Assembly: GCA_914767715.1 (NCBI GenBank)
Contig: OU612074.1
Coordinates: forward strand, 3,857,501-3,921,500
DNA from: Membranipora membranacea
Taxonomy: Eukaryota > Bryozoa > Gymnolaemata > Cheilostomatida > Membraniporidae
DNA length: 64,000 nucleotides
Reading direction: 5' to 3'
Below are positions 2,973-38,958 of the stretch, one piece after another. The notes beneath the pieces are model-generated. The model saw nothing but the letters and a program-made list of their open reading frames with translations. It had not been told where the DNA came from and ran no database searches. The number at the start of each line of letters is the position of its first letter. Within the stretch, counting starts at the first letter, position 1. Made by a program: the position numbers and the translations under genes.

Positions 2973-3540
2973 CATTGGGGAGCTGACAAATCTGGAAGAA
3001 TTAGAAGTTTGCAACAATGTCAGACTGACCAGCTTACCAGATGATATTAAAAAGCTGAGGAATCTGAGGGTCCTCAAGGCTGATCACTGTTCTCTATCTA
3101 AAATCCCTGAGTAAGTCTGTCAGTGTTTATTACCGAATAAGGGCAATGTTAAAACATGATAATACTGAATGTTACAGATTTGGCTCCAGGATCCTCATGT
3201 TTTGTCTTCTCTCAACATGAATATGATATAATCATGTTGCGAGTAACCAACCTTAATGTACTTATGGACTTACAATGATGATTGTTGTCTGCTACAGAAT
3301 TTGTGAGCTGAAAAGTCTGGAAGTATTAGATGTCTCATTCAATATCAGACTGACCAGCTTACCAGATGGCATTATCAGGCTGAGGAATCTAAGGGTCATC
3401 AAGGCCGATCACTGTTCTCTATTTACAATCCCTGAGTAAGTATATCAAGGTGTATTATTAATAAGGAGAATTTTACAATATGATAATACTGAATGTTGCT
3501 GATATGGCTCGAAGATCCTCATGTTCTGCCTCTTTTCAAC
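2900..3540 (+). repeat. Tandem duplication of an LRR exon with its flanking intron
   Basis: Exons 2973-3110 and 3298-3435 are both exactly 138 bp, have the same phase and encode near-identical LRR units. The similarity continues into the introns on both sides: a shared TTACAATGAT block before each acceptor, and a shared GATAATACTGAATGTT block followed by a CCTCATGTT block after each donor. The unit is about 325 bp. This is LRR-number growth by exon-intron duplication and looks fairly recent. Confidence 0.75.
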
Positions 3541-6500
3541 TGCAATATCTTTCTAAAGTGTCTTGGAAAGGTGTAGTATTGTAAACTGTCCCAAGCTGTA
3601 CCAGGGGATGGCGGTGGTAACTCCGTAACATTATGACTGAGTGTATGAAACCTCTTTATTATGAAGTACCCGATAGATCTAGTTTTCCGGAACACCAGTT
3701 GTTATTTGAAGCTCCTACGATTTAAAGACATCTGGTTTGCAAAGAAAGGTGTACTACATTACAAAACACACTATCCTTGCAGTGTCTTGCCGAGGTAATA
3801 ACAGTTTTGAGAATGATACTTTGGCGCCTTAATGCATTGCCACATTTGTGACTGACTGTCATCACCATAGAGTTATTATATACTCTAGAGTGGACAATGT
3901 GTACAAAAATAGCATCAGTTTTTGTCCTACTTAATTATTGTGAAATCCATGACGCGACGCAATCTGGTTGTGCATGGCTAGTGCCTGTATCATATAACTT
4001 ATCATTGAGAATATACGTATTGAGTATGGAAATTTAGATTTTTAGAGCGCTTAGAGCCATTTTTTTGGAAATTCTTTTATGTGACACTATGTGGATCACT
4101 TGCAGGTGTTCTCACTTTCAATTCTATGACGCAACAAAATCTGGTTGTGCGTGGATAGTGCATGAATCATTGACTTTATCATTGAAAATATTAGAATTTG
4201 ACACACAAATTTATTGTTTATGGAACACTTATAGCCATTTTTTCAGAGAATCTCACATGTAGCACCAATTACATCACCTGCAGGTATTTTCTCTTCCAGT
4301 CAGTATAAAAATTTTTCTTATTCTCCCATTAAAATAAGCCAAATATAAACCGCAAACACATGAGCTTAAGTCGCAATGACAGGGCTTGCTGTTTTCTGCC
4401 AGTTCCCAGGCATTTAACTTTGTCTTTCTGACTAAAATGTTACATCCTCAGTGAGTTCATTTTATCTGTCTGCTATTATGACTTCCAATTATACAAGGTG
4501 TACAAGTAACCCGTGGTTAAATAATTTTCAGCTTGAAGATCTCGGGTTTTGGTTTGGCTATGTCATTTAAAGCTCCTAATTCCCTCTTCGGGGTGGCCAC
4601 TTTTTTTTTGCCGAAACTATTCAAGCCAACACAGCAGTTTAAATCAGTAAATACATAAGCTCATCTGCTGAGTCGCTGAGTATCAAGAAAACGTCGAATG
4701 GACAACTCAAGATACATGCTTGTCCAGATTGACTCGTGGCAGAAAACAGCTAGCCCTGTCATGGCAATTTAAGCTCATGTGTTTGCGGTTTATATTTGGA
4801 TTATTTTAATGGGAGAATAAGGAAATTCTCATACTGACTGGAAGAGAAAATACCTGCAGGTGATGTAAATGATGTTACATGTGAGATTCTCTGAAAAAAA
4901 TGGCTATAAGTGCTCAATAAACTAAATTTGTATGTCAAATTCTAATATTTTCAATGATAAAGTCAATGATTCATGCCCTATCCACGCACAACCAGATTTT
5001 GTTGCGTAATAGAATTGAAAGTGAGAATACCTGCAAGTGATCCACATAGTGTCACCTAATAATTTCCGAAAAAAATTTCTAAGCGTTCTAAAAATCTAAA
5101 TTTCCATACTCAATACGTATATTCTCAATGATAGTTATATGATACAGGCACTAGCCATGCACAACCAGATTGCGTTGTGTCATGGATTTCGCAATTATTA
5201 AGTAGGACGTTTTTAGCACTGCATTGTCCACTCTAGAGTATATAATAACTCTATGGTCATCACTCACAGGCAAATGCTTGATAGAGGTAAATTTTATGAT
5301 GAATGAATGGGGTGGTTGTTTTCACGCGGCTCGTGAACCTGCAAAGAATGACATATTATAACCCATTGTGCCATTGTGCCATTGTGTCCATCCAAAATTT
5401 GCTACACAGTCCCCTCATAACAATCACACTAGGGCTGCAAAATTATAATTTATTCTGCTTGAGACTTTTTGACAGATAATCTTTATAAGACAGCTTGGGG
5501 GTGGTTGTTTTCGCGCAGCTAAAGCAATGGGTCAAAATGCAATGGGAAAATGTTTAGTGCGATAAGTATTGTAGTAGAAACTTGTTCAGGACTCACACTA
5601 ACAAAGATTGAAAAGCAGTGTTTCTCCAGACAGACGTGGGGGGGAGTTTTTTCACGCGGGTTATAGGGCTACTGTGGAATGCAAATAACCTGTTACTTTC
5701 ATTAAATTGCGATCCATCCATCTGAAAATCAACAAGTAGCATCATTATGACATTAATACATGGCTGTAAAATAAAATAAGATTACAATAGTAATTATTGA
5801 ACATACAGTTCATATAAGCTAATGTAGGGTGGTTGTTTTCGCGGCTTGAGCGATCATTTTCAGCTCAAAATTGATCGTCTCTCACAGGCAAATGCTTGGC
5901 ACATACAGTTCATAAAAGTAACTCTTGTGGCATGGTTGTTTTCTCATGGCTTCAGCAAAAGCTTTGTTGAGGTGTAGCAAAAACTGTGGCCTTAGCTCAA
6001 TACAAACAAGCAACAATAGTACACATTGTACTATCTGGTTGGTTCAGCCATCTCTCATGAGAGAGTATATTATCATTGAGGCGCCAAAGTATCATTCTTA
6101 AATTTTTTATTACCTCGGCAATGATAGCTGTTGGCTAGGCACTGCAAGGACAGTGTGTTCTATGATCTGGTATCCACACATCTATTCACTGTTTACTTAG
6201 TGCACCTTTCTTCGCAAACCAGGCGTCATAAAATCATAGGAGCTTCAAATAACAACTGGTGTTCCGGAAAACTAGATCTATCAAATACTTCATAATAAAG
6301 ACAGATTACAATATTGTAAAGTGTCCCGGGTCGTTTTTGCATGGGGGACAGTTTACAATACTACACCGGTACTAAAATAATTGAGAGAAACAAATGTAGC
6401 ACCAAGATGATTTCTAATCAGTTTTCTTTCCTTCGTTCTAGCCATTTATTATTATTGTTTTAGTACTCCAAATCTTTCGCAACTAGAGGAGATCGGTCTG

Positions 6501-9500
6501 AGAGGAAATCTTGCTCTGACTAGGATACCATCATCTCTGTTCATGCTTCCTAAGCTGACAGTAGTAGATTGTACTGGTTGTGAGAAGCTCACATCGCCAC
6601 CCTATGTTGTATGGATACAAGGAATTAAGGCAGTGCGTAAATACTTCTTTGATCTGGCAGCTGGAGCAAATCAAAATGTTAAGTACATTCCTGTGACAGT
6701 AATAGGACAAACTATGGCCGGTAAAACCAGTTTAGTGAGATCAATGCAGGACAATACACGAGTTCTAACCTTTCGGTCTGAAACCAATCTCCGTGACGAG
6801 GCTACAAAGGTGTTTAAGGTTTGTGAGGCAAGTGTCGATGATCAGTCAAGATTAGTATTTCATGATTTCGGTGGTCAGGCGATCTATCATTCCTCCTACC
6901 AATTGTCCATGAGGTCTCAATTTGTGCCAATGTTGGTTATCGATATTGCAGAGTTTCACAGACTTTCCTCCTTAAGTGATCCTGAGACAGCCTGCAGAGA
7001 ACTATGCTTTGAGTGGCTTTCACACCTTTTTCTTGCTTGCCCCCAAGCTGGTCCACCCCTTGTTATTTTGACACATCGTGATGGGATCAGTGATGACTCC
7101 GTGTTCGAGCTTAGCCAGAAGCAGCTCATTGACACCACAGAAGCTCTGCAGCAAGAAACTGTTGCAGAGGAGGAAGCTCTGGCCCCTCAAACTAGCACAT
7201 CCTTCTCTATGAAAAGCTTCTGTGATTTGTCATCACCACTTCTTACATTGGACAGAATCAAAGTCTTTTCAAGGGCCTCTGATATTTCGGATATAAACGA
7301 ATTAAAAAGGGTCTTACTAACGATGGGATTGGCATTACTGACAGAAATCCCTGCCAGTTGGTACCTGATGATGAATTTGTGTTTGGGTCAGAAGGATGAG
7401 CCATTTCTTACTCTAGATCAACTCAGTAAACTGTTTCCTGATGACAAAGACCACATTATCCTTCAGTATCTCACTGATATAGGCATAGTCATGTGGTATA
7501 AGCACAGGGAGAAATATAGTGTATAGTGTTCCATCGATCTGAAGTTCTGACTAAAATTGTCGAGTTAGTTTTTGATCATTCAAGTGAAGAGGCATGGAAA
7601 CAGAGGGTGGCGGTCTTCAAGCCGTTCAGTGCCAAAGGCAAAGGGGTGACCAAGAGAAGGTATGAGGATATGGTTCAGCATTTTCAGAGTGCAGGATTGA
7701 TGGATGAGGTTTTGCTGTCTAGACTCCTAGAAGAGGAGTCTGAGTTGTCTAGTGAATTAGCTATAGAGATTCTGAAGACATTCCATTTGATCTGTGGACC
7801 GATCAAAGGTGGGAGAAACTCCTACTACTCAATCCCTTATTTCTGCAAAAAATCAATTCTGCTTCTGGTGACTGGGTCTCTCATTCCTCTGAAGATAGAC
7901 ATATGCTTCAATGGTCTCTCAATACCTAATTATGTCTACCATCTTCTGACTGCTGTATTCGTTGATTTTCAAATCGAACCTGAACAAATCGATGTCGGAA
8001 TGAATGGAGCAAGTGTTCTAAAGAGAAATGGTACAATGCTTTATCTGCTGCACAATTCATATGATAGGGTGGTTACAATCTTGGCTATGAGTTCTATAGA
8101 ACAGATCGTTGATGCTTGGGAAAGCCAGATGTCTACTCTACACCATCTCACATCCCAACTTCGTTCCCTTTGGATAGGAGCCCATTATGATGTCCTCACT
8201 TACTGTGCCCACTGTCTGATGACGAAACAGAGTGTTCCAAAAGCCCAATTAGATCCCGACTGGCTTGAGGAACTCACTTCACCTCAGTACACTGGAGAGC
8301 AGATTGCACCTTGTGAAAGAAGCTCATTTCACTCAAGGCCTCTAGTGCCTAGCCCTCTCCAGCGTCCATGTAAGTGGAGACAATCTTCAATACAAAGTTT
8401 CTTTTGTTATAGAGAAGTTCTGCTCATTATCAACATTGTTTCTGATACTCACTGCTATAGTATAACCATCTAGATGCAGTTTTTGTGTTGTCTACATTTA
8501 ATTGCTATAGAAATGGCAATGATCGATGTAGTACCAACAATAAAGACCCCTAAAATTTTGATAGGTGGAGGCATTACCACGGAAGCCATTGAGGTGCTGA
8601 AGGAATATGCCGCTGATATTGGTGTAGAAGCAAACCGACAAGGTATGCTTAATGGTAGACACTGCGTTAATATGCATCACGCATAAGCACCATAGTGCAG
8701 GGGTTTCTTATTACATTCTAAGCATAATAATCAAGATACCAATAAATTACTTGAGTATCATTCAAATAGGATATTATAGGATATTATGTTAAGTATTCAA
8801 ATTAAATAGGGGGAGAAGAATTATAAGGTATCAATATCGATTAACAATATATGCCACAATCAATACTTGCTTACTGTTTCGTTTTCAACAGAAATCAATG
8901 AGGCTCAACAACAGTCCGGAGTAAGACCTGTTCCAGGAAATATTACCAGGTCACAGATTCAAGATGTTGTGGCTATTGTGAACTCTACCCACACCGTCAT
9001 ATATCTGGATCCAACTCTAGACGGCCTTGCAGTTAGAACAGAGTCCCAAGTGAGTGTTTGAGCATGATTCAAATAGATTTATCAAACTCGAAGCTGTATA
9101 AAATCACTCATCATGCAACTTGGCTTTGAAATAGAGGAGTCTACTACAGCACTCTACATATACGATCTGATTTTCCCTCCACACCAATGTTAGCTAATGA
9201 AATGGTGTCATATTTTATTTAAGGATGAAACTTTCCCACTGTCAGAGACTCGTGGACGAGCTCTTATAATATCCAACTCATACAACAATACAAGGCCCGG
9301 GTCAGAACATGACTATCACAATGTGAGACTGATGCTTCAGAAGTTTGGGTTCATCACAGTAGGAGACCATAAGAACTTCACTGCACATGTATGTCTACTT
9401 ATCCGTATTAATATAGTATTTTTTAAAGTTGTATTGGCTTTAAGTTTCCATCCTGTATGAATCAAATTAAGTAATTAGTTACTAAAATAGATTTTTTCAT

Positions 9501-12415
9501 GGTAACAACCAACTGATCCTAGGTTAAAAGCATCCATAACAATCCAATATTGTGTTGTGTATAACAAACAGTTTAAATCCCTCATGAACAGGGCATGATT
9601 AACTTAATCCACCGTGAGACTCAGATGATGGATGGTCATACAGGAGAATCGGTACACAAAGATCTCAGTGCATTCGTACTCGTGGTAACAACTCATGGAG
9701 ACGAAGGGTGTGTTATGGGCTCTGATAGAAAGTACATCTCTATCCCTGATTTACTACAGCTACTCTCTCCGAAGAATTTCCCAGCAATGAAGGGGAAGCC
9801 AAAGATCGTAATAATACAGGCTTGTGGAGGCAGTAAGTTTGTATCACATGATTTTGCACAGGCATTTTAATTTTAGAAATGCAACGGTGGCCTTTGTGCT
9901 TTTTGTGCAGCTCTACTTGGTTTCAGTTTCTCTACAATGTTCAAGAATACTATTCATCAAATACAAAATCGAGTCCTGAGACAGACCAATATTATTTTGA
10001 ACCATTAATTCACAATACTTACCAAATACTAGCATGGCTTTTGTAGCAAAACGAGAACTGCTGCTGTATGACCAGTTTGATGCTCCGAGTCAGCCAGCAG
10101 CTGGGACTCAAGCAGCTCAAGCAGCACCCAGAAGTTGGCATCCTGGTGCTATGGATACAGAGGAGACAGATGATGACTTCTGTGATTCAGAACCTCAAGA
10201 GATCTCCACATCTGATTTTATCATAATGCAGTCTAGCTTTGACTGTATGTACCACACTTGCAACTCATTTATCTATAAAGCTGTCAAAATCAACACATAG
10301 GATGCAATATTAAAAAGGTTGATTAAAAGGTTGATTAAAATCCGATGTCATATCACTCGCCCATCCCGAGGCATGGGCGGCGAGGCGAGGCCGCAATATC
10401 TGCGCCAATTTGCTCTCTGTTTGCAGGCAGGTCGGAGCACACCTGGGGGACCAACCAATCCCCAGTAGAAGATGGACTGCAGTGGGATTCGAACCCACGA
10501 CCTTCAACACTTGCGTGTTGAAGTCTGGCGCTCTAACCAACTGAGCCACCTTCTACTCCATTAACATGACAAAGTACCTTGAGACAGTTAGCTCAGATGC
10601 TACCGGATAAAAATTGATGGATTTTATATAGATAAACCTGGCCCATAGTTGTGAATGGCAATACTTAGCTAACACCATCATTTAAGACAGATAAGTCAAC
10701 GGCTATGGCCCATCCCATAGCTGGCAATGCTAGAGTAGTCAATAGCAAAGTATAGCAGATAAAATCAGGTCTGCCTTTTATGTGTCTTGCTCACATCACT
10801 TATATTCACTTCTTTCATAATTAATTTGGAAGACATTTTTTTAATTGGTTTCAGCCTTTGGGTCACCCAGAAGAGAGAGTATTGGTTCAGTCTTTATCAG
10901 ATCCCTTGTCACAGTGTTTTACAAGTTTGCTCACCAACATCACATAAAAGACCTGGCTGCTGTGGTAAGTCATATGTACTTGGTCTGTTCATTATGTTTC
11001 CTTCTCAGTGTGAATATATGGATTACAGTTTGCTCTTGACAGGCAGGGCAGGCAGATTATAATATTATTTGAACTCTGACTACTGTTGAGATTTATTGCA
11101 AATAGTGTCAAAGGCATTTTCTGTATAAAGATCCCCCTCTGCGTCTCCGAAAGAAGTTGCCAGTATGTGCACGACAGTGTTAGGGTCACTCCTTGGCACA
11201 TCTGGGACTACGTAGAGGATTTCTACTAACTGACTGGGCTCAACTCATGTACAGTGATTAAAAGCATTATAATAAATGATACTGGCTGATGAAAGAGCAG
11301 GAAACAGGGAGCATTCTAGATGGGTGTGTAAGAGTTAAAATCAGTTATTAAAAGCATTATTATAATACTGGCTGATGAAATATTTTAGATGGATTGTAAT
11401 AGTGAAATTCAGTTATTAAAAGCATATTATTATTAAAATTAGAAAAGTTATAAAAATGATGAAAGGGGAAGACAACTCATGATTCATGAATTTATTTTTG
11501 AATGTTCCGTCAGCTGTGGTGGAAAATCCACCCAACTACATGGGCTTGTTGCTCGTTGGGTCATGCTGGATAAAATTTTGTCTATACTTACTGATATAAC
11601 TTTTAGCAAAACCTTGTATTGCCATTGTACTTCCTCTGCTACTTATTGATGTGTCATGCAGTGTGTCATCACTTCTATTGAATGTGTTATATTTTCTTAG
11701 ATCCGACATGTTGTTGCTAAGGCTGGAGTGGAGAGAACAGACTACCTGCTGACTGTCAGGCCAAACAGGAGAAATCCAGAGAAGGCCTATGTAGCCTCCA
11801 TGCCTCAGACAAGATGTACATTTATAGATCAGAAGTTCTATCTACGACCTGGAGTAGAAGTGAGAACAGATAATCATCCAAACTCACTGGTTCATCCTGT
11901 TCTACCAGATCCGACAGTCACAAGGATTGAGGAGCTTCCAGAAGGTAAGAGTAGCTGAATCACACCTTTATATTATAAATAGCCAACATACCTTGTCAAG
12001 AACCAGTAAGTGGCTACCAATTTAAAGCACAAATACAGGATTAGTGAGGGTGGAGTAGTTCCAAAGATTTTATTCCAACATTGGTTGTATTTTCCTGTGT
12101 TATTTTTCCAGGCATTAGAATTTCTATTTCCATACTATTGCGTTTCTCTCATTTACTTAAAAATATCACTAAAATTTTTCAGGTGACGCTGCTCTGAATT
12201 TGCCTCATCACATGATCAGATAAAAATGTTCTCCTAAGAGAAAAATCTTTGTCACTTTGTTACTTTTTCTGATCAAATCTGTCATCCATGCCACTACTTT
12301 TTCTCTAAATTGACTTTTTCTCCAAATTGATTTTTTAGAAGTCAAAAGTGTGACTGTGAATGGTCAGACCTTGAGATCTGCTCGTTACTACAAATGGGAA
12401 GTCAAGAAAAACTGA
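2973..12415 (+). CDS. LRR-Roc-COR-caspase fusion protein (ROCO GTPase with C-terminal peptidase C14), 5' partial
   Basis: Proposed exons: 2973-3110, 3298-3435, 6464-8369, 8511-8642, 8892-9049, 9224-9388, 9592-9832, 10047-10244, 10855-10964, 11701-11944, 12339-12415 (stop TGA). Exons 1-2 each encode one 46-aa leucine-rich unit containing LTSLPD. Exon 3 starts with a third LRR, then Roc: P-loop GQTMAGKTS (about 6709), DFGGQ switch (about 6867), THRD base-recognition motif (about 7072). COR follows to about 8369. After a linker of unknown type comes a caspase. The p20 has RGRALIISN, the S1-type Arg in TRPGSEHD, catalytic His in TTHGDEG and catalytic Cys in QACGG (canonical QACRG). An acidic Asp-rich linker leads into p10 with SFGSPRRESIGSVFIRSL. 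Phases fit at nearly every junction, which argues for one gene. Two faults exist: a frameshift at 7517-7526, and a TAA formed by the 8369/8511 junction. The alternative is two adjacent genes, or a decaying copy. Family knowledge: Roc-COR binds and hydrolyses GTP and mediates dimerisation; caspases cleave after Asp. Inference: a GTPase- or LRR-controlled death protease in the cytosol. Confidence 0.8.
3570..6367. mobile_element. Fold-back (inverted-repeat) transposable element, about 2.8 kb
   Basis: The ends are inverted copies of GGTGTAGTATTGTAAACTGT (start 3570; complement ends 6367). Outer arms are 3570-3825 and about 6080-6367; they share, for example, GGCGCCAAAGTATCATTCT in opposite orientation. 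An inner pair of arms, about 3858-4405 and 4735-5262, is also inverted and centred near 4570. No transposase frame is present, so it is non-autonomous. I could not find a target-site duplication. It occupies most of the intron between the second LRR exon and the Roc-COR exon, and its transcript could form a very long hairpin. Confidence 0.75.
5308..5955 (+). repeat. Five dispersed copies of a TGGTTGTTTTCRCGCGGCT motif
   Basis: Copies begin near 5313, 5512, 5640, 5830 and 5933, in the part of the fold-back element that lacks an inverted partner. Spacing is irregular, roughly 100-200 bp. The core is TGGTTGTTTTC followed by a CGCGGCT-like segment, diverged in the last copy. Repeated subterminal motifs are typical of transposase-binding sites; that role is inferred. 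Confidence 0.6.
7517..7526 (+). other. Frameshift inside the Roc-COR exon
   Basis: The Roc frame runs through VMWYKHREKYS and hits TAG at 7524-7526. The COR sequence continues as VFHRSEVLTKIVELV in the frame beginning at 7526. That frame is closed upstream by a TAG at 7517, so the shift lies in these ten bases. The sequence here is a short tandem run (TATAGTG twice), consistent with a two-base slippage gain. With two bases discounted, all exon lengths sum to a multiple of three. It may be a sequencing error, an allele or a disabling mutation. Confidence 0.8.
10315..10556 (-). mobile_element. tRNA-derived SINE, family A, copy 1
   Basis: On the minus strand the head reads GTAGAAGGTGGCTCAGTTGG (A-box-like), and 10484-10495 is the complement of a B box, GGTTCGAATCCC. 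The anticodon arm is replaced by a TTCAACAC / GTGTTGAA hairpin, so this is not a working tRNA. The body contains CCAGGTGTGCTCCGACCTGC, shared with the element at 43676-43835. The 3' end is a short tandem TTTTAATCAACC tail. It lies in the intron before the caspase p10 exon. Confidence 0.75.
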
Positions 12416-24429: not shown

Positions 24430-27336
24430 AAGTTCAGCTGTGAGTAGTTCAGCAGGATTTTGATTTCCAGATACATGAGCAGACAACTCAAAGATTATAC
24501 AACATTCCTTTTTTTATACTTTTATAAAATAAATTTTAACAATGTAGAATTGATACCCCCTATTGTAGTAACTATTGAAATCATCTTTTTCCTAAATATA
24601 TACTTATCTTTGCACTATAAGTTTGTTTTTCTGTCTGAGCAGACTAGACATAGCAGTCTGTGCTCTGTCTAATAGTATTGGATATAATTTGAGGCCCTGG
24701 CAGTTTCTAAAATGTCTCATGATGAGTAAGACGTTCAGAACGTAGCCCGGGCTCAGTTTACTGTGTGGTGTTGTCAGCAAAAATGTACATCCGTCTATAT
24801 GGCACGGTAGTCATGTCAGGAGTCTGTCATTATTGAACATGAACCAAGATGCTTAAAGTCATATATCGCCTTCCTGGTTTCAGCAAAAGGTGTGTTACAA
24901 TACTTAAAATTTTTTCATAAGTTTATTCAGAATAGCGCACTGATGCAAAATGTATCGTCATGACTCACTAATTTCAATTGCAAGAGTTCCATGCTGGAAA
25001 GCACATACACCCAATTTGCTCCCATTACAACATACTGAAAAATGTGAAAAAAATTACATTGCGTCCCCCCTGGCTCTGACGCCTCACCACCGACGTTTCT
25101 TGGGATTAAGTTACTAATCTATGACTCTTAGTCTATGTGGGGCCATAAGGATATCCGCATCATATCTTCTCATCGTTTTGCAGAGCAGGATCGGTGGTGT
25201 TTTTTTGCATTTGACGATGATAAATCAGTTATTACCTGACAGATTATCAGCGTGACAGATTCCGATCATCGAGTCAGCTGTACTTTACTCTGTTGTCTCA
25301 GGGTGTAGGTACTGATCCTGTACCGTGTGGTGTCAGCTTTAAATGCTTTGTTCTGTCCTGCCGGTCTATATGAGTAGAATATCCGCTCTTGATCAAGATT
25401 TTGTGTGCTTTAATGGCGTTTTTTACCTGAAAATTAAAATGACAAATTGTCTCTAGAGACATGGTTCCAATAAGGATGCGAGATGAAGGTGTAACACAAA
25501 CGTAAAGTTTGATTGTCGAATTTTGAAGCCATCTGACTCGCATGGATGTTGAAATGCATGGCTCTGTCTGAGGAGGTCTGTCTAAAAGAAACGAAAACAG
25601 GAAGATTGGTGATGGTACTGGGTATGAAGTGTCAACATCAGTAATTGCTTGTCTATTTCCTCCTGGATCTGCATGGTGAGCAGTAACTCAATCATAGACA
25701 AAGTTATGGAATAATATATGAGAACTCAACTGCCAAGTAAAGTGCTTATTCTATATTTTACCAAAAGTTCCGCAATTGCATCTACGCTTGGTCGCTACGT
25801 AATTTAACCGTCTATTTCTTGATATCACCACTACATCGACCACAATTGCATGTTGCTGGTTGATCAGGGTCACGCTCCAATGGTAAGCTAATGAATGTTG
25901 CAAAATACCAAAAAAATCCTATATTATGGAAATCAGTATGGAATAATTAATGGCCATTAACTAGAAGTTATCTGTCACTAATATACAGATAGATCAGAGG
26001 CGTTTTAGGTTTTAATGTAGAGTCAATGCCAACGAGTGACGTAGTCGTCACAGCCTTGTAGGTCTGCTTATCCTGTTGTTGTGTTGGTTGCACCTGGCCC
26101 ACTTCATACCTATTAACTGTCAAATCGCCTGTGGTGAACATTTCGTGTCTCAAGCTCTCTTCTTGTCTGCCATATCTCCGAGTGTTGAGCCTGACAAGTG
26201 ATAGAGCTGTGGATGGAGTGGATTATGTGTGGACTTAACCGCTGACAAACCAAAGGTAGGTTAATGTTACCAGAGCTGCCAGAGCTACTGTTGACCTTTT
26301 GTTGGTACCGATATATCATATCTACTGTCCAGCCGACTAAAGTTTGTGATCTAAAGCTGTGATGTCCCCTTGTTGAACTTTGGACTCGAAGTTGACAGTC
26401 TTATGGAAGCTGGCAGCAGGGTACCACCTTCACCCCATCAACTTTTTGGTTTCACTTACAGTATGTCAGACTTGGGGTGAGGGATCACATTGTCCCACTG
26501 ATCCTTTTTGATTACATTTTAGATCCTGTTTTAAGGGTTACTCTTGTCCGCAGCCCAATAGGCAAATTTAGTCACGGATTAGCCAGTCTTGAAAAGTTAT
26601 TTTGGTTGGGGGGATGTTCACCAACAAAGCTTGTCATTACAGACTCGTCCTGGCTATTCTTCAGGTTGGGCAGATTTAATGATTTGAGAGCACAATCACT
26701 GGCATCGATCGTTACTAGGCCATATCCAGATCAGGAATAGAGGCCGGGCATTCATATAAGTCTGACCTTGTGCCGGTCATTCGTTTGGTCCTGGGTTACT
26801 TTTGTATTTTTTGATTGGTTATAGAAATACCTAGCCTGTCTTTGACAAGCTTATCAAGACAGCTGGGGGCGCAACCACATCATCTCTTGACAAACCTGTG
26901 ACGTTATCAGAATGCATCAGCTCAAACCATTAGAAGTAATCGCGGTTGTTGGAGTATTTTTAACACAGCCCATTATCCTTATCTGTGACTGGTCTCATAA
27001 GGCTAATGGGCCATTCTGTTACTCACTATTGGGTATAAATGGATGATCTGCCTAAGGTATGAAATATGGAGCCTCTTAACAACCTTTTAATCTTGTATCA
27101 TCTTTTGATATATATGGCAAAAAAGTTGAAAATTCACATTGTATCCATGTTGTTTAATGTCATTTCAGGCAAAGACGACTACATTTGTGGGATCGAAAAC
27201 AAAAACAGGCATTTCTTAATTAGACGCTTACAGCAGAAGTCGCCTTTATGCTGGATTATACCAACAAGCATACTTCAGTAAAGGCAGCAGATGCGGGGAT
27301 AGAGACTTCAAACACAGGCATTAGTGATATCAAATC
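24430..27336. other. Intergenic DNA with the 5' UTR of receptor gene 1
   Basis: No gene is supported here. A small fold-back (GCCTGTCTTTGACAAGCTT region, about 26832-26870) belongs to the AGCCTGTCTTGACAAGCTT family seen at 45316-45389. TCATTTCAG at 27160-27168 is a good splice acceptor, so 27169-27336 is probably the 5' UTR part of the receptor's coding exon. Confidence 0.4.
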
Positions 27337-28758
27337 ATGAGTACAGAAAATATGACCGGATATTGGTTAGAGGAATTTGAAAAGGAACATTGCGCTGTCA
27401 TCGATATCCTCTTCGTGATATTTCCAATATGTGGATTATTATCTTCCGGACTACTACTCATGTTATTCATATTCCAAAGAAGCCTTCGTAAATACTCCAG
27501 TCTCATGTTGAATATGACACTTTTACATCTCTTCTTGAGATCTATATCTGTACTTATATTCAAGTCGCCTCAGAACATCCAAAGTGACATCGGAGATAGC
27601 AGTCCAATCTACTGCTCTATTATGAAGCTAGTACCGGAGTACTGGAAGATTGTACTTATTATTGGATTACCTCTACATAGCATGGAGAGACTCATCAGAT
27701 TTAAGACGCGCTCTTTCATGACTCTATCAAAGAGGAGACAACTTTTCGGATGTCTACTTATTGTAACGCACACGTTATCGTTGTTTATCGTGATATTACC
27801 AACAACTTCTATATTCAACGAAAACTTCAACGTAATGTGTGACCACGCAGTCGTGTACGGCGAATCTTATGTCTATATATTCATGTCTATTAACGGATTA
27901 TCGATAACTTTGACTGCTGCATTGGTTGGAGTTATTCTCATAAAGCTGAACTTTAAGAGACTTGAGCTCAGAAATGATCAAAGCAGACGTACACGCCTGT
28001 CTCAGGTGGTTAGAGCCGAAGTCATGCTGACGCTGGCTATTTCTGTCGGATTGATGCCGTGTGGAATAATCAACATAGTGAAACTTATGTGCGGCAGTTA
28101 TATGATCAATCATAACAGTTTCTGTGACAGCAAAGAGGAAGGCTACCGCATGCATAATATTCTACAAATGCTGAGATTCACACATAAAATCTTCTGCTAT
28201 TTCTCGCCGATAGTTTACCTACTTCTAAACTCTAAGCTACGACACAAAGTGTGGTTATCATTTCGTAACAGCAAGTCAGGAAAGAAAGGAAGTAGGTCAC
28301 AAGGGTCACAAGGGTCAAACCTGGTGAGCGAAGACACCTCATCTGAATCTTTGGACTCCTCATCTACACGATTCACTGTGTCTATCATAACAAGCAGACG
28401 AGGTAACAGTCTCAGCAAAACTATCAGTGTTAGTTCACTTGACGAAGACGATATCCTCACTATAGCCAATGATCTACAGGTCATACCAGGCAAAAAACTG
28501 ACACCGCCCCCTATTTGGCAGCGAGAGAAAAAGGACTCACATATGCGGCAGCGATCTTCTAAATCCAGTAAGAGTCTAACTGATCTAGTCGATGTTATGT
28601 CTGTGATTAGTGAGAAGTCAGAGGTTAGTCGTACTAGCTCGATCACTCGATTATCAGTCAGTCAGTTAGAGTCCCGTATTAGTCCTGTCGACTCTGGTAG
28701 AGGGTCTTTACGTAAGTCTGACTCATCCGACAATGAAGAGGACAAAGAATACTACTAA
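27337..28758 (+). CDS. Divergent seven-transmembrane receptor 1 (rhodopsin-like GPCR candidate)
   Basis: Intronless CDS of 473 aa. Seven hydrophobic helices at about residues 23-48, 56-76, 91-113, 133-153, 174-198, 229-252 and 280-297. The cytoplasmic tail of about 170 aa is rich in Ser/Thr. Class-A-like features: Cys at the start of helix 3 (IYCSIM) paired with Cys in loop 2 (VMCDH), and SMERLI at the helix 3 end in place of DRY. Helix 6 has LMP instead of CWxP, followed by an extra loop-3 Cys pair (MCGS...FCD). Helix 7 ends SPIVYLLLNSKLR instead of NPxxY. The tail has DVMSVISEKSE from residue 419, shared with both paralogues. No signal peptide. The ligand is unknown. Assignment to rhodopsin-like GPCRs is inference from topology and the Cys/ER pattern. 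Confidence 0.8.
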   Translation: MSTENMTGYWLEEFEKEHCAVIDILFVIFPICGLLSSGLLLMLFIFQRSLRKYSSLMLNMTLLHLFLRSISVLIFKSPQNIQSDIGDSSPIYCSIMKLVPEYWKIVLIIGLPLHSMERLIRFKTRSFMTLSKRRQLFGCLLIVTHTLSLFIVILPTTSIFNENFNVMCDHAVVYGESYVYIFMSINGLSITLTAALVGVILIKLNFKRLELRNDQSRRTRLSQVVRAEVMLTLAISVGLMPCGIINIVKLMCGSYMINHNSFCDSKEEGYRMHNILQMLRFTHKIFCYFSPIVYLLLNSKLRHKVWLSFRNSKSGKKGSRSQGSQGSNLVSEDTSSESLDSSSTRFTVSIITSRRGNSLSKTISVSSLDEDDILTIANDLQVIPGKKLTPPPIWQREKKDSHMRQRSSKSSKSLTDLVDVMSVISEKSEVSRTSSITRLSVSQLESRISPVDSGRGSLRKSDSSDNEEDKEYY

Positions 28759-31700: not shown

Positions 31701-33435
31701 GCCTATGGTTTTTGGTGAACGGAAAGTGAAGACGATTGATTCTTTCATCTTCTGTCTTACCCAAGGAACCCTGATGGAACTTTTAATCGTTCGTTGTGAT
31801 ATGGAGAATATTACGCTGCCATACATATATATATTTATATATATATATATATATGTTGACCTTAATATATAAAATACATATTATATATATATATATATAA
31901 TATAGACTTTATATATAAAGGCATGTATATATAAATGCTGACCTACAGACATCAGTGGGGGTATATAAGTGAAAATCCAGACCTCTGAATAGTGAAATCA
32001 TCCGATTTTTCTATTAGTCTGCTTCAAGGAAATAAGGAAATGAAACGTCCTGTATCAACTTTATAGGAATACCATAGTCTAGCTTGAAGAATGACTTGCA
32101 ATAATTGTTCTCAGATTGCGATTGATTATGTTAGTCAATGATGTAAACTACCTATGATGACGGCTACTTCAAAGTTAATCGGTATGTCCATCTTCGGCAT
32201 CGGTAAGGGTACAGAACAAATTAACAATAGTGCAAAAGAAATAAGGTCCCCAGGACCGACAGCCAGAAAAGATTTTTCCGTGTCCCAGAGGGTTAACGTA
32301 TTTGCAGCAGGATGAGTATGCCTTTTTGGTGCAGGCTTGTATTAACTCATGGTTAGCTAACATTTACTCATCCTGGATGTATCTAATCTGAGTAACTGTT
32401 CGACAAATTCTTAATCAGATTGCTAACAAACTTTGAACTCCCAGCATATAAGCTGAACCTCTGGCCTGCATTTGGAAACAATGGTATATTTATATTCTGC
32501 TGGCATAAGACTGACACTTGTTGGAGAGCGCTCTACTTGTGTGGCGATACAACATAAGTGTCATTAATCTTAATAATACCCAAAACTGTCAATATATCAC
32601 CGCTTTAACCAGATCCGGAGTCATAACTTACTCGGCCAAATGGCTTACCAACCATACTAAACTGAGTGCAACAGGGCAATCTCGGCGGAGGATCAATCTA
32701 GCTTCCATATTACTAAAGAGAACCAAATGAGCTTGACAGTGGCATTTTATGACATTTATTCCTTGCACTGATGAAGCAGAGCTCCTGATTTTAAAGCAGG
32801 TTGCATTATAAGGAAGGATGCGGTACTGGACAGATCTGATTCTACATCTTCTTTAACTTGTAAGTCAAACTGAGCTAGAGATATTATAGTGGCAACACAT
32901 TTTTTTTACCTGATGTTATAGTGAGGACCTCTGATGCACATAAAAGATTTAGCTACAGCTGATACATAAAAGATTTAGCTACAGATTATCGTATCACCGT
33001 TGGCAAAGTTGCTGAATTCCCTTGGAATTAACTTTGTTACTCAACGTCCCATACAGTTTTGTAGTACAACATGATCTTCTTTGATCAAAAGGCCAATATG
33101 TCATTGCCTGCAATACTGATAAATGATGGCGTTGTTACTATTTTTTATGCTAGGCTGGTATCAGTTTGCAAGCACCTCGAAGGACATCTGATAAACTAAA
33201 TGGTGGGCAATAAATGGTGTACTGTCTTGGGATTTAAACTCAGGCACTGGTGCAATCGAAATTGATTGTTTATTGAGCTCGAAATTGTGTTGTCAAAAGG
33301 TTAAACTCAAGCTCTTAGGAAACAGTTGAATATATTGACAATTTCTCTCTGTATTAATACTCTACCCGTCTATTTTCGATGTATTACCTTCACCTTTGCT
33401 CCATCCTTCCAGGGCCGGTACAGATATGTCCAAGA
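28759..33435. other. Intergenic DNA between receptors 1 and 2
   Basis: A possible poly(A) signal AATAAA for receptor 1 is near 29020. A TA-rich microsatellite is at about 31824-31931. A short direct repeat of CATAAAAGATTTAGCTACAG occurs twice near 32938-32985. TCCTTCCAG ending at 33412 is a likely acceptor placing the receptor 2 start at 33436. No other gene was recognised. Confidence 0.4.
31824..31931. repeat. TA-dinucleotide microsatellite cluster
   Basis: Several (TA)n runs separated by short unique sequence, self-complementary on both strands. Intergenic. Confidence 0.8.
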
Positions 33436-35244
33436 ATGACAGTGACAGAAAATAACACAGACCTATGGTCCCAGCCACACGGATATAATCTGACATTAAA
33501 CTACACCACAAATACTCTTCTACAAGTCATCCATAGTAGCGTTGACAACATACTCGACGCCGAGCAAGATATAAACAATGTCATGGAAAACCCTAACTCT
33601 AACCCTAACTCTAACTATGTCACCTCATCAACAGCTGCCGTAACGTTATCGGCGACTGATGACACTACGTCATCAGTTACTGACACAACGTCATCAACAC
33701 TAGAGACAAGTACAGTGGATGTGTGGGCTGATACTATAAGCCGATTCGACGACAGTCCGATTTCCTCTACTTCTCTTATTGCATTCTCTTTAGCAGCAAT
33801 TCTAACCGCCGGGTCCCTTTTGTTATTGTTCGCTGTGAGAAGACGAACCCTAAGATATACCTCGATGATAAGGATGACTATACTAATCAATATAATACTT
33901 ACCTCTATTAGTGATATTATGGTCAGAGTGCCGGCAAAGGCTGACAAAGATCCACGGGAACCAATCATATGCGTCATATCTCATCTGCTTTCTGACTTCT
34001 GGATAATATTGATGATTTTGATGCTTCCTCTGCTTTGTGTAGAGAGCTTATTGACAAAGAGATCAAAGTGGATAGTATCAGAGAGGCAGAAAAAGAATCT
34101 CATCGGATCATTGCTGGTTGCCGTGTACACATTTACTGTGGTCTTCAGTTGTCTCCCCACAATGGTTGTTGGCCGATATGATCAAAAGAATCGCAAATGC
34201 GATGGGAAAATTCAGTATGGTCATTACTTTGCCTACGTCTTTTTATTTCTCTCAGTCATAATGCTTGTCATTGTGGTGGTCTCAGGTCTCTTAATAAGGA
34301 GTCGTCTGAGGGAAAGATTAACTCAAAATGACATCTCAGATAAACGCAAGGAGAAGCTCAAACATCGGTATCACAACACAGTATCACTAACTGCTATGTT
34401 GTGTCTCGGACTGATCCCACACTCAATAACACGGCAGCAGACCTTATTCTGTGGCAGTAGAGATCTGAACGTGGTTACTTATTGCACAGATACTCTGCCC
34501 TTTGTGTTTTATCGGCTTTCATTTCTGCTGCTAAAGTCAGTATACACTTTTCTACCGGTTATGTTTCTTGGGTTGGATCCCAAGCTCAGATCTAAATACT
34601 GGATTTCCTTTGGCAGCCCTCCAGAGGAGGTTTTATGTGAGGACTCTGTGCCGACGAGTAGCGCTTTAGTTCCAGTAGAAGGCCCACCACACCGTAGACT
34701 GTTTGAGGAGGACTATGAGACAGATCCAGAAGTTCTGGCTCTTCTGGCTATCACAGATGGCCGATCAAATCTAGATTCAAACCCTCAAGAAAATCTCCCC
34801 TCGACTTCTCAAATAGTTCGACAGCGCAGCAGAGGTAGAAGTGCCCAGAACACTTTAAGTTTCCGCAAGAAGAGAAAGCGAGTCAGTGACAATGTTGATG
34901 TACTTTCAATGATCAGCGAGAGATCCGAGTCGAGTCGGTCGAGCCGGTCGAGCCGGACTTCCAGTGAAAGGGCTAGCTTTAGAGCTAACTATACTAATCA
35001 AGCGTTTGATTGGTCAGCTTTGCAGGCTGCTGGAGTCACACCGTCTGTACCTAGGTCAGTTATCCAGCCTAGGCTGATAAGGAGGACAACATCATACTCG
35101 TGGATAGCCACCCTCACCAACGATGCATTCATAGAGGATGAAACAGATGAAAGTGACACACGACAGCACAGCAGACTCGCTCTCACAGATGGGACCGCTG
35201 AGACGGGTAATGCTGTAAATACTGACATAGATGACTTGGATTAA
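33436..35244 (+). CDS. Divergent seven-transmembrane receptor 2 (rhodopsin-like GPCR candidate)
   Basis: 602 aa from ATG 33436. An upstream in-frame ATG at 33379 is disfavoured because a splice acceptor ends at 33412. The N-terminal ~110 residues are extracellular, Asn/Ser/Thr-rich with NxT sites and repeated DDTTSS-type segments. Seven helices follow (first at about residue 111). Shared marks with its paralogues: Cys before helix 3 (IICVIS), CVESLL at the helix 3 end, loop-2 Cys in RKCDGKIQYGH, helix 6 GLIP, loop-3 Cys pair (FCGS, YCTD), and helix 7 FLPVMFLGLDPKLR. The ~210-residue tail carries DVLSMISERSE from residue 488, then a Ser-Arg repeat (SSRSSRSSRTSSER). It has the longest ectodomain and tail of the three. 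Confidence 0.78.
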   Translation: MTVTENNTDLWSQPHGYNLTLNYTTNTLLQVIHSSVDNILDAEQDINNVMENPNSNPNSNYVTSSTAAVTLSATDDTTSSVTDTTSSTLETSTVDVWADTISRFDDSPISSTSLIAFSLAAILTAGSLLLLFAVRRRTLRYTSMIRMTILINIILTSISDIMVRVPAKADKDPREPIICVISHLLSDFWIILMILMLPLLCVESLLTKRSKWIVSERQKKNLIGSLLVAVYTFTVVFSCLPTMVVGRYDQKNRKCDGKIQYGHYFAYVFLFLSVIMLVIVVVSGLLIRSRLRERLTQNDISDKRKEKLKHRYHNTVSLTAMLCLGLIPHSITRQQTLFCGSRDLNVVTYCTDTLPFVFYRLSFLLLKSVYTFLPVMFLGLDPKLRSKYWISFGSPPEEVLCEDSVPTSSALVPVEGPPHRRLFEEDYETDPEVLALLAITDGRSNLDSNPQENLPSTSQIVRQRSRGRSAQNTLSFRKKRKRVSDNVDVLSMISERSESSRSSRSSRTSSERASFRANYTNQAFDWSALQAAGVTPSVPRSVIQPRLIRRTTSYSWIATLTNDAFIEDETDESDTRQHSRLALTDGTAETGNAVNTDIDDLD

Positions 35245-37608
35245 TAAATTCATACAGACCTCAATAGACAATCAGCCACATATCTTGAAATATCTGGATT
35301 TACTATATTAGATGTATCAGTAAGAATCTGAACCCTGTGATTATTTGTTTACACTTTATTCGGTCAGAATATGGTAGACCAGATCAGATTAGTCTTTTGC
35401 TAGCGCATCAACAAAGGAAAGACAACTCTTCGTTTTTCAATCCGGCTATTTTTCTCGAACTCAAGATACATAATATAACATTTATGTACGTCGATCACAT
35501 AATGTATGCACTGATATCTTGATACCGGTAGAGATATTATATTAACATTTAGTATATCATAACTTTATGCTGAGGTCTCAGTGCGTGACTGCAGATTAGT
35601 CTATGATCACAGCTATCTATCTCTCTATAATAGCTGAGGACAGCTAAGTCACCATGATTTCTTAATATTTTTGATGAATCCATACAAAGCCTGAGATTCC
35701 TTGAAGGATTAATGATGTTGTTGAGTTGTGCCCACAGGGCAGGATTAATAAAATATTTGTGCTATAGCCACAGGTATATATTAATACTAAGTTAAATTGT
35801 AAAGGGTCGTTACCAATTTAAGCTTTCAATGTCTTGTGAAAACTTAAGAATCTGAAGCTATATTGGTATCCAAAGCACCTAATCCCTTGCCATGCCATAC
35901 GCTGATATCTTTACAACAGAATAGATTGATTACAATATTACGGCTCAGTCAACCGTGGACTGAATTTGTCATCACACTTTGATTCAGATACACAAGGAGA
36001 GGGAAGCTCGATAATAGGGGAGTTAGCTCTGTCAGTTGCATGACAACATAATTATACGTTAGCTTAAATGCGTCAAAGTCCCCGATAGTAAGACTCTACA
36101 CTACCGACTGTCAGTGTGAGAGGAGACTACGAGATACGAAAGTTGGATTACTATGAATAACTAGACGAACATGATTATAGTAACTGAACTGTAAAGTTAC
36201 CAACTCGAGAAAACCAATCAAGGTAAGTTTGTTAAAATACTTTGCCATGGTCTATGGGTGTATGCTTTATGGAAATCTGACATTCATACCTATATTTCAT
36301 GTTGGCTCTCTGTATATCATGACTTTAAAATGAACTCCCCCTACTTCAGACGCTCATAAGACACATAGGCATATGGGATAATGAAGTGTTATGTTGGCTT
36401 AAGTACTGCACGCTGCCATCATGTATGGTTTTGTATTACTATCGATTAGAAACTTCCTGCATATCAACAGTAGGAGGCTTTGGCTGTCAAGAAGCCAACT
36501 CTACCCCTCTATCAGGTTTCCCGACATTGAGTTGACAGTAACTGCGACTGATCGTCAATTTTGGAGCAAGGCCTGAACGTTTTATGATTGCATAATCTTT
36601 GTTCTATTATGGCGGCCCATAAAGATGACAAACTGCATTTCAAGATGTCTCTTCTCAAGATGTCACTATAGGCTGCCATAGTCTGTTCCATAAAAAGTTA
36701 CCTGTATGTCACCTGCATCAAATTTTTATATTGAGTTGATTTAAATCCTGTCATTTCATCATCAATAATGGCAAATTCATAAGTATGGTTTAATCTAGAT
36801 TGTGACATAGAAATCTAAGCTAAGCTTATATGGGTAGAGCATTTAACTGAGATCTAACAGGGAGAATTCCATTCTCCCTGGATCTAATCCCTGCTAATAA
36901 TATCAATCAAAGCCTACTTACTGCAGGCATATCCTCTTTCTTATTTAATACACTATATGCTGGGATATTTGACTGCCTTGGATAACAGCTTTATGTCGAC
37001 AAACATATCGTTTTATTTTTGGTTTGATTTTTTTAATTTTTGAGTCATCTTTCTACCATAGTGAAACCGCCTATGGCGGATTCGGACGGACAGACAAATA
37101 AATAAGCTCATATTTTAACCTGCTCATCACAACCTATAGCTGTGACTTTAGTTTCCTTGAGGAACGCCCCCCCCCTCCATCTCGAACACGCTGCAAAGCT
37201 TTTGGTTGATATTGCGGTGCTTTTTTTGGACAATTATAATTGTTTTTTTGATAGTGAAAAACCTCCCTGTATACAGTTGTATTATTGTATAACCAGCGAT
37301 ACATGAAAGTTAGGATCAATTAAATAGGTGATAAACATCAAAATATTACATTCCCTGATGCGACCGGTTCCATGAGACAATAGGTAACTTTAGTAGTGAA
37401 TTAACATATACCATCTGATGACTAATCTCCCATACTTTAGTGCCATTTTGAACTCATTATTCGGCAAAGCTTGTTACGTTTTTTGCTATGAATCAGTTGT
37501 TTTCTATTTGTGTTTACAGATACAGAACTAACATTTATAAGGAAAAGACAACGCTGGAATCACAACAGACGCAACTGGTGCTGTGTAACTGCGGATAAAT
37601 AACACACA
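35245..37608. other. Intergenic DNA with likely 5' UTR exon and intron of receptor 3
   Basis: A GTAAGT donor at 36223 and a TGTTTACAG acceptor ending at 37519 could bound a 1.3-kb 5' UTR intron of receptor 3. A weak tRNA-like segment near 36835-36895 (GGGTAGAGC ... GGATCTAATCCC) may be a degraded SINE head. No other gene is seen. Confidence 0.4.
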
Positions 37609-38958
37609 ATGGTATACGCCTTGACAGGAACTAAAATTCCTATCGACACATCTCACGAGTACGCAATGAATATCACCGACACAGCATTCAATGACTTAGA
37701 GCCGTCAGAATCGGATGAAGTGAGCTTACCGGCCGTAATAAGCACATCTGTTTTCGCTGTGGCCGAGATCGTCACAAACGGAGGACTACTTTTAATATTT
37801 TTACTACGACGACAGACTGCGAAACATGCCAGTCTGATAATGATTAGTACGATGGTGAACATTGTAATCTCCGCTGTGTTTGACTTAGCCATGAGAATAC
37901 CACTAGTGGTCGTCAAAGAGCATAATCTGGGAAAGACTAACAGAAATCTCTGTATAGCTATGACTCTAGCTCCAGATTTCTGGTTTTACGCCATCATACT
38001 GTGCCTGCCTCTCCTTAGCATCGAGAGATTAATAGTCCTAGAGACAAAATCAAAACTATATATCCGCAAGAAAAACGGAATATTCATTATTATGCTTATA
38101 GCGGCGTATACAGTCGCTCTTATTATAGCTATTTTACCTACGACGGCCGTCTTCAGGCCAGATGTTAACTCTAAATGTAACGGCAGCTTACTGTATGGTC
38201 ACAGATTCGCTCATCTGTTTGTCTCCATCACCGCGCTCTCAGTCATTCTAACGGCCATATTCTCCATATCACTAGTGTTCAGACTACGGCTCAAACTACA
38301 ACATTTGACAACCACGATGAGGAAGAAGATCGTCCTAAAACAAGGAACCGTATCGGCTATAGTCATAACTACAGTATTATTTTTTGCGTTGGTACCCTTC
38401 GCTGTATCGCTCCAGCTTGTTCTAATGTGTGGCAGCAATGAAATCACAGACCAGCAATTTTGTGAAGAGACCCTCATGGGGATTATATTCAGGGTGAGTG
38501 TCACGGTGAGTCGGCTAAGTCTCATTGTACTACCTCTTATATTTCTTGGTCTCAACCCAACCTTGCGCCGCCGAATCTGGCTGACGTTGCGTCGACCGAA
38601 ACAGATGGAAAACATAGCTACGATTTCAAGCACTACGGGATCTATGGCCTGGAGTAAAGACTCGGGGATCAATGAGGGAGACGAGTTAGAGTATGGGCAG
38701 TCCGATGATGCAGGGGACTTTATAACAATAGACCAGGATCTTAAGTTTGGCAGAAGCGGAGATCAAACAGCAGGGGGCTTAGTTAGGAGGCAGCGATCAG
38801 TCAGGTACAGACAGAGTGTGATAGATCTTATAGACGTGCTGTCTGTGATCAGTGAGAGATCTGAGGGCGCTGACAGCGCTGACAGCACTGACAGCGGTGC
38901 GTATAGTAACTGTGACTATCAGCATGATATAATCGAATATGATGAGGGGAAGACATGA
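37609..38958 (+). CDS. Divergent seven-transmembrane receptor 3 (rhodopsin-like GPCR candidate)
   Basis: 449 aa, single coding exon. Seven predicted helices, the first at about residues 42-64. Family marks: Cys before helix 3 (NLCIAMT), SIERLI at its end, loop-2 CNGSLLYGHRFAH, helix 6 ALVP, loop-3 Cys pair (MCGS, FCEE), and helix 7 VLPLIFLGLNPTLRRRIW. It is closer to receptor 2 than to receptor 1 in loops 2 and helix 7. The tail has RRQRSVRYRQ and then DVLSVISERSE from residue 409, with an acidic AD/TDS repeat after it. Same orientation as its two paralogues, so probably a tandem expansion. G-protein coupling is inferred only. Confidence 0.8.
   Translation: MVYALTGTKIPIDTSHEYAMNITDTAFNDLEPSESDEVSLPAVISTSVFAVAEIVTNGGLLLIFLLRRQTAKHASLIMISTMVNIVISAVFDLAMRIPLVVVKEHNLGKTNRNLCIAMTLAPDFWFYAIILCLPLLSIERLIVLETKSKLYIRKKNGIFIIMLIAAYTVALIIAILPTTAVFRPDVNSKCNGSLLYGHRFAHLFVSITALSVILTAIFSISLVFRLRLKLQHLTTTMRKKIVLKQGTVSAIVITTVLFFALVPFAVSLQLVLMCGSNEITDQQFCEETLMGIIFRVSVTVSRLSLIVLPLIFLGLNPTLRRRIWLTLRRPKQMENIATISSTTGSMAWSKDSGINEGDELEYGQSDDAGDFITIDQDLKFGRSGDQTAGGLVRRQRSVRYRQSVIDLIDVLSVISERSEGADSADSTDSGAYSNCDYQHDIIEYDEGKT

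Follow-up and report, generated by a model that had tools for sequence, protein, structure and literature searches.

The gene described here occupies positions 2973 to 12415, on the plus strand, of a 64,000-nucleotide stretch of the genome of the bryozoan Membranipora membranacea (contig OU612074.1, positions 3,857,501 to 3,921,500). This stretch is referred to as the window and corresponds to C10:3857501-3921500 of the genome searched, which comprises 339 Mb on 18 contigs. The locus is likely to be one copy of a large family whose members combine leucine-rich repeats (LRRs), a Roc GTPase domain, a COR domain, and a caspase, and in which sensing by the LRRs would be passed through a Roc-COR switch to the activation of a tethered caspase. 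Read from sequence are the order of the parts, the conservation of splice sites and their phases between COR and the p20 region of the caspase by way of two linker exons, the catalytic and S1 positions, and the recurrence of the arrangement at dozens of loci. A preliminary description of the window had presented a lone ROCO-caspase; the genome instead contains at least 76 Roc-COR loci, among which this one is counted.

The gene model, obtained by reading frames and splice sites, consists of 11 coding pieces separated by 10 introns, all of them GT-AG and phase compatible. Two LRR exons (2973..3110 and 3298..3435, both phase 2 in and out), of which the first is a copy of the second within direct repeat D1, precede a long exon in two parts. 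The first part (6464..7520) encodes the last LRR, a linker, the Roc GTPase, and the start of COR and is 98% identical to P0001, a protein from a public assembly; the second (7523..8369) encodes the remaining COR and ends in a phase 1 donor (CCAT followed by GTAAGT) that is conserved in the comparison of paralogs. Two linker exons follow, namely, X1 (GGITTEAIEVLKEYAADIGVEANRQ; 8565..8642; phase 1 in and out) and X2 (including RSQIQDVVAIVNSTHTVIYLDPT; 8892..9049; phase 1 in and 0 out), the counterpart of the latter being spliced to p20 in the cDNA-like sequence P0013. The caspase is then distributed over p20 exon a (9224..9388), p20 exon b (9592..9832), an Asp-rich intersubunit linker exon that ends in DFIIMQSSFD and has a KRE motif in common with P0013 (10047..10244), p10 exon a (SFGSPRRESIGSVFIRSL; 10855..10964) and p10 exon b (including SMPQTRCTFIDQKFYLRPG; 11701..11944), both as given by the gene model, and a last exon with the stop (EVKSVTVNGQTLRSARYYKWEVKKN; 12339..12415). 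A spliced aligner reproduces the introns of the model between the COR donor and p10 exon b, with phases of 1,1,0,0,1,1,0; this alignment, of the window with its own model, and that of the paralog at C10:1.62 Mb with an edited protein derived from it are consistency checks and not independent evidence.

The last exon finds support in the C-termini of P0013, which it resembles, and of the C10:1.62 Mb paralog, and the gene end at 12415 proposed previously is correct. It superseded our first choice, 12183-12222, and that earlier C-terminus is the one present in the proteins used for Pfam scoring, for the first protein search, and for the seven-sequence alignment, as well as in the queries for spliced alignment; in the Pfam-scored protein and the queries of the first two protein searches, the borders of X1 and of the linker exon were also slightly off.

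The connection between COR and the caspase was read at 18 loci, namely, the window, a first set of 11, and six more (L031-L036). At all 18, COR is closed by a GTRAG donor in phase 1, after the first base of the codon, and at 17 of them the next exon, X1, restores the split codon in phase (detected by script at 15 and by eye in the window and L023), as Cys in 16 and as Ser in L026; the search pattern was shaped on X1 itself, with no random control. X2 and the phase 0 junction to p20 are present in the first set as judged by eye, and in L021 and L028 X1 and X2 form a single exon. Inspection by eye also indicates that the sequence past the COR donor is neither conserved nor ended by a common stop and that X1 and X2 have no common start codon. 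The conserved donor, the in-phase X1, and the lack of a conserved sequence or stop beyond the donor together argue for one spliced gene, COR-X1-X2-caspase, at the loci of this family, and they strongly support the proposal that LRR-Roc-COR and caspase belong to one gene, such fusions being very likely. When the C10:1.62 Mb protein was used as a query, the phases seen in the window were repeated at C10:23.73 Mb.

The recurrence of the arrangement across the genome provides a second line of evidence. A genome search with P0001 identified at least 68 Roc-COR loci (69 rows, with 69 of 240 candidates scored), and as 8 of 11 paralogs found near caspases are absent from those 68, there are at least 76. 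Among the 145 caspase matches listed for the genome, a caspase lies 927 to 2967 nt downstream on the same strand at 38 of the 68 loci, and none of the 68 has a listed caspase within 6 kb in another arrangement. The chance expectation is about 0.0013 listed caspase per locus, and a chance neighborhood is, among the matches listed, very unlikely because of the recurrence in a single orientation. The window and the six loci L031-L036, out of the other 30, also have caspase exons, which raises the count to 45 of 68, with 23 unread. The caspases of five of these six were recognized through motifs read by eye together with weak tblastn matches, whose E values are 4e-6 to 0.03, and that of L033 through a Pfam match of 46.3 bits to a hand-joined protein.

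Starting from the caspases, 10 kb was examined at each of 20 loci taken from the best caspase matches, and 11 of these have Roc-COR upstream at a gap of 0.7 to 1.3 kb. At one further locus (L025), LRRs and the start of Roc precede the caspase and most of Roc-COR is missing. Roc-COR and p20 distances correlate across 11 loci (Mantel r 0.55, with 29 of 9999 permutations as high; L024 was left out because its Roc-COR is broken), which shows linkage and not, by itself, fusion. The loci at C3:23.43 and C5:4.15 Mb have closely related Roc-COR parts (distance 0.41) and distant caspases (0.60), which suggests an exchange of the effector. A second, divergent caspase type (QACQ, with SVRGxFTG in p10 in several) is seen on the Roc-COR scaffold at L031-L036, and very long, regular LRR arrays precede Roc-COR in the same open reading frame (ORF) at L031 and L032 (1745 and 1634 amino acids). 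An origin as an mRNA-derived retrocopy, which would have proved the join in mRNA, was considered for the very long ORFs at C1:30.53 Mb and C11:2.96 Mb and was rejected, as they consist of long LRR arrays and a Roc-COR that stops at the donor used elsewhere in the family, and caspase-like exons lie beyond it.

The caspase assignment made previously, with p20, p10, and both catalytic residues, is confirmed by a PF00656 match to the window model of 107.4 bits (cut-off 21.4) over positions 1-232 of 233, covering p20 and p10. The His-Cys dyad lies in the THGDEG and QACGG motifs of p20 exon b, and both residues (columns H419 and C462) are invariant in seven aligned sequences. TRPGSEHD, in p20 exon a, and SPRRESIGS hold what we take to be the Arg and Gln positions of the S1 pocket; P0013 aligns with caspase-1 at the S1 Arg positions. 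The best solved matches of P0013 are caspases, as are all 50 of the fold matches listed. The Asp-rich intersubunit linker may be a site of self-cleavage. Pfam gave no CARD, DED, PYD, or DEATH domain in the parts scanned, from which a first exon may be missing, and no STAND ATPase (NACHT or NB-ARC), the only match being to AAA_22 on the Roc exon (E 0.14).

On the GTPase side, the motifs GQTMAGKTS, DFGGQ, and THRD are all within the window exon, G4 being THRD and not NKxD; PF08477 matches this exon at 30.7 bits (cut-off 27), and Pfam also matches LRRs in the gene. The COR domain is a putative one, assigned from its position, from the precomputed PF16095 of P0016, and from fold matches. The top five Foldseek matches are Roco RocCOR or COR structures, with TM-scores of 0.14 to 0.29 for a low-confidence model of P0001; the structure models are poor (predicted local distance difference test of 52 for P0001 and 50 for P0013), and the fold matches are therefore only supportive. 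The best solved match is CtRoco, both by sequence (Roc part only) and by fold (low TM-scores). At C3:23.43, C5:4.15, C8:21.17, and C11:1.53 Mb, the switch motif DxGGQ is replaced by DxGGH or DxGGD, and GTP hydrolysis is possibly altered in these copies.

The observations that weigh against an intact, single-chain ROCO-caspase concern the reading frame, the COR assignment, the junction, and the transcript-like sequences. The Roc frame is ORF 6411-7526, which stops at TAG 7524-7526, and COR carries on in ORF 7520-8473, with the shift at about 7516-7522. No usable intron between the two frames was found by eye, and tiny GT..AG introns of 8, 24, and 32 nt across the shift were rejected, likewise by eye, as too short, in the wrong frame, or at the loss of conserved COR residues. 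The preliminary reading of consecutive phase-compatible exons thus holds for the ten introns and fails where Roc and COR stand in different frames. The Pfam COR-A profile scores only 18 bits in the window against a cut-off of 35.3. P0001 has no break at 7516-7526 and elsewhere shows 8 differences in 640 aligned residues; 9 of 11 Roc-COR paralogs span the site in one piece (residues 3 or 4 to 635), and L028 aligns in one piece over residues 4 to 592. The window copy, broken in frame at 7516..7526 within COR, is not the intact fusion it was taken for, and because of this break it is probably an allele that is variant or has lost its function. The Roc-COR of L024 is itself split into two overlapping pieces at about 6574-6583, some 15 residues beyond the break in the window and likely by a frame break, and in 27 of the 69 rows of the P0001 genome search the matched region includes one or two stop codons; given these, other copies of the family may be damaged. 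The break in the window may represent damage, a variant, or a misassembly, possibly alongside other broken copies. It is rather probable that the family is real and that the copy in the window, as a pseudogene or null allele, makes no ROCO-caspase, as would fit the break, the intact P0001, the listing of the window locus, and of no other among the 69 rows, in two pieces, and the signs that damage may be common. On the other hand, the modeled exons contain no further stop or broken splice site, and an assembly error is possible, with P0001 perhaps being another allele of the same locus.

A single spliced gene for the family as a whole must also be weighed against the view that a ROCO gene and a caspase gene are separate neighbors, duplicated as a block and sharing no mRNA. 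Three protein searches, two of which scored the best ~8000 candidates each, returned no joined COR-caspase transcript or protein; X1 was not found in L019 (1 of the 18 loci read); several divergent loci needed doubtful extra introns in the same spliced alignments that reproduced the phases at C10:23.73 Mb; and 8 of the 20 caspase loci examined have no Roc-COR upstream. The 0.7 to 1.3 kb between COR and the first caspase match would leave room for a small promoter, and the correlation of distances is compatible with linkage alone. The cDNA-like P0013 is 97% identical to the paralog at C10:1.62 Mb and lacks the introns that lie between X2 and the last exon, so that a C10:1.62 Mb-like locus is apparently transcribed and spliced in some sample. 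Its 5' end falls inside the X1-X2 intron of that paralog, through intron retention or a second start, from which it follows that a caspase-only or intron-retaining product exists. P0013, which has the caspase and yet begins in intronic sequence, can be read in favor of two genes; it neither demonstrates nor excludes the join between COR and caspase. P0014 starts at p20, and in ten further matches (P0016-P0025) a Roc-COR frame continues as far as the COR donor or slightly past it, as expected of genomic contigs. Two independent genes would nevertheless leave unexplained the phase 1 donor at every locus read, the split codon restored at all but one, the absence beyond the donor of conservation or a common stop and within X1 and X2 of a common start codon, and the merging of X1 with X2 in L021 and L028, and we regard this explanation as very improbable. 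Regulated isoforms, with a fused sensor-protease beside a free caspase started downstream, for which Roc-COR might serve as a scaffold or decoy, are somewhat less remote and still unlikely. They would account for the start of P0013 within an intron with the downstream introns removed, but they depend on that one sequence, the open frame leading into X2 lacks, by eye, an in-frame Met in the window, L016, and L027, and plain intron retention suffices.

The gene start probably lies upstream of the window, as the phase 2 LRR exons lead one to expect a continuation in that direction. At about -1410 to -1180 there is an exon that, as judged by eye, is similar to N-terminal exons conserved in L019, L020, and L021, and an LRR-like exon with an unclear donor was seen by eye at about -590 to -430. 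BLASTP linked L019-L021 to one another and not to the exons upstream of the window, and Pfam gave no family match for the exon at -1410 or for the L020 exon. Directly upstream, in L009 (C10:3847501-3857500, about -9000 to -3200 relative to the window), are retrotransposon-like ORFs, presumably of the BEL/Pao type. The intron before the Roc exon contains a long imperfect hairpin (3653-6301; nine inverted pairs, 80-96% complementary), perhaps a mobile element. Minus-strand, tRNA-like matches at 10482-10548 and 61423-61504 (Rfam, 31 and 32.5 bits), which were not called by ARAGORN, are possibly tRNA-derived repeats, one of them inside a caspase intron. Plus-strand ORFs at 27328-28758, 33358-35244, and 37603-38958 (451 to 628 amino acids) have by eye the look of related multi-pass membrane receptors.

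When the one-chain architecture is placed into a physiological context, it is conceivable that the LRRs sense a ligand, such as a foreign or danger molecule, and that Roc-COR would thereby change its bound nucleotide or its dimerization, which would in turn draw two tethered caspase domains together or free them. The caspases might then cleave themselves within the Asp-rich linker, and the cell would be killed or alarmed with no CARD or DED adaptor involved. Initiator caspases are known to be activated by enforced proximity, for which Roc-COR would be the evident device in the window family; caspase-1, -2, -8, and -9 and CED-3 share p20/p10, the His-Cys dyad, and the S1 Arg positions with the window family, which differs from them in having LRR-Roc-COR and a short linker on the N-terminal side, with CARD or DED not found by Pfam. 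Roco proteins usually end in a kinase, a death domain, or nothing; CtRoco, LRRK1/2, DAPK1, and MASL1 resemble the window family in the tandem Roc-COR behind LRRs and differ from it in that the family ends in a caspase. The NLR inflammasome and the Apaf-1 apoptosome likewise place a caspase under the control of sensor repeats and a nucleoside triphosphate switch, whereas in the window family the switch is a Roc GTPase and not a STAND ATPase, the protease is apparently on the same chain, and an adaptor domain was not found.

CtRoco is reported to be a dimer when nucleotide free or GDP bound and a monomer with GTP (PMC5714945), a behavior that runs opposite to the GTP-driven dimerization of Roc-COR proposed in the preliminary description. 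The idea of a ROCO-caspase is also not wholly new, as an in silico study names caspase among the effectors predicted at the C-terminus of LRR-AP-GTPase(Roc)-COR proteins in bacterial conflict systems (PMC8195603). These proteins have the same order of LRR, Roc, COR, and caspase-type effector and a proposed role in defense and suicide; compared by description only, the window family differs in being intron rich, with an animal-type p20/p10, a two-exon linker, and dozens of copies. For Dysidea avara, the legend of Figure 2 in a paper on NLRs names CASc and COR among the domains drawn on NLRs, and the available text of that paper yielded no passage on ROCO-caspases (PMC12909245). No report of an animal ROCO-caspase family was found in the literature, which is a weak negative, subscription journals being mostly uncovered. 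As far as these partly available sources go, the animal family of this architecture and its copy number appear to be new, and bacterial counterparts had already been predicted.

With the case about evenly balanced, it could be that one-chain death receptors arose in a lineage of early animals and grew by duplication into a large repertoire (at least 76 Roc-COR loci, with a caspase downstream wherever read). In such receptors, a tethered caspase would be controlled directly by the GTP switch of Roc-COR, and not by a STAND ATPase with CARD/DED adaptors, the number of LRRs would vary, and the caspase type would be exchangeable. Such a repertoire would be an animal counterpart of both the bacterial Roco suicide systems and plant-style receptor repertoires. 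As both enzymes would be in one chain, the debated control of a Roco effector by nucleotide or dimer state would be directly testable by a protease assay. If true, there would be a caspase pathway that needs no adaptor-based platform, and a Roco protein would have a protease output and hence an easy readout; cell death in animals would be connected with the Roco-effector suicide proteins of bacteria, and the innate receptor repertoires of animals would gain a GTPase-based class.

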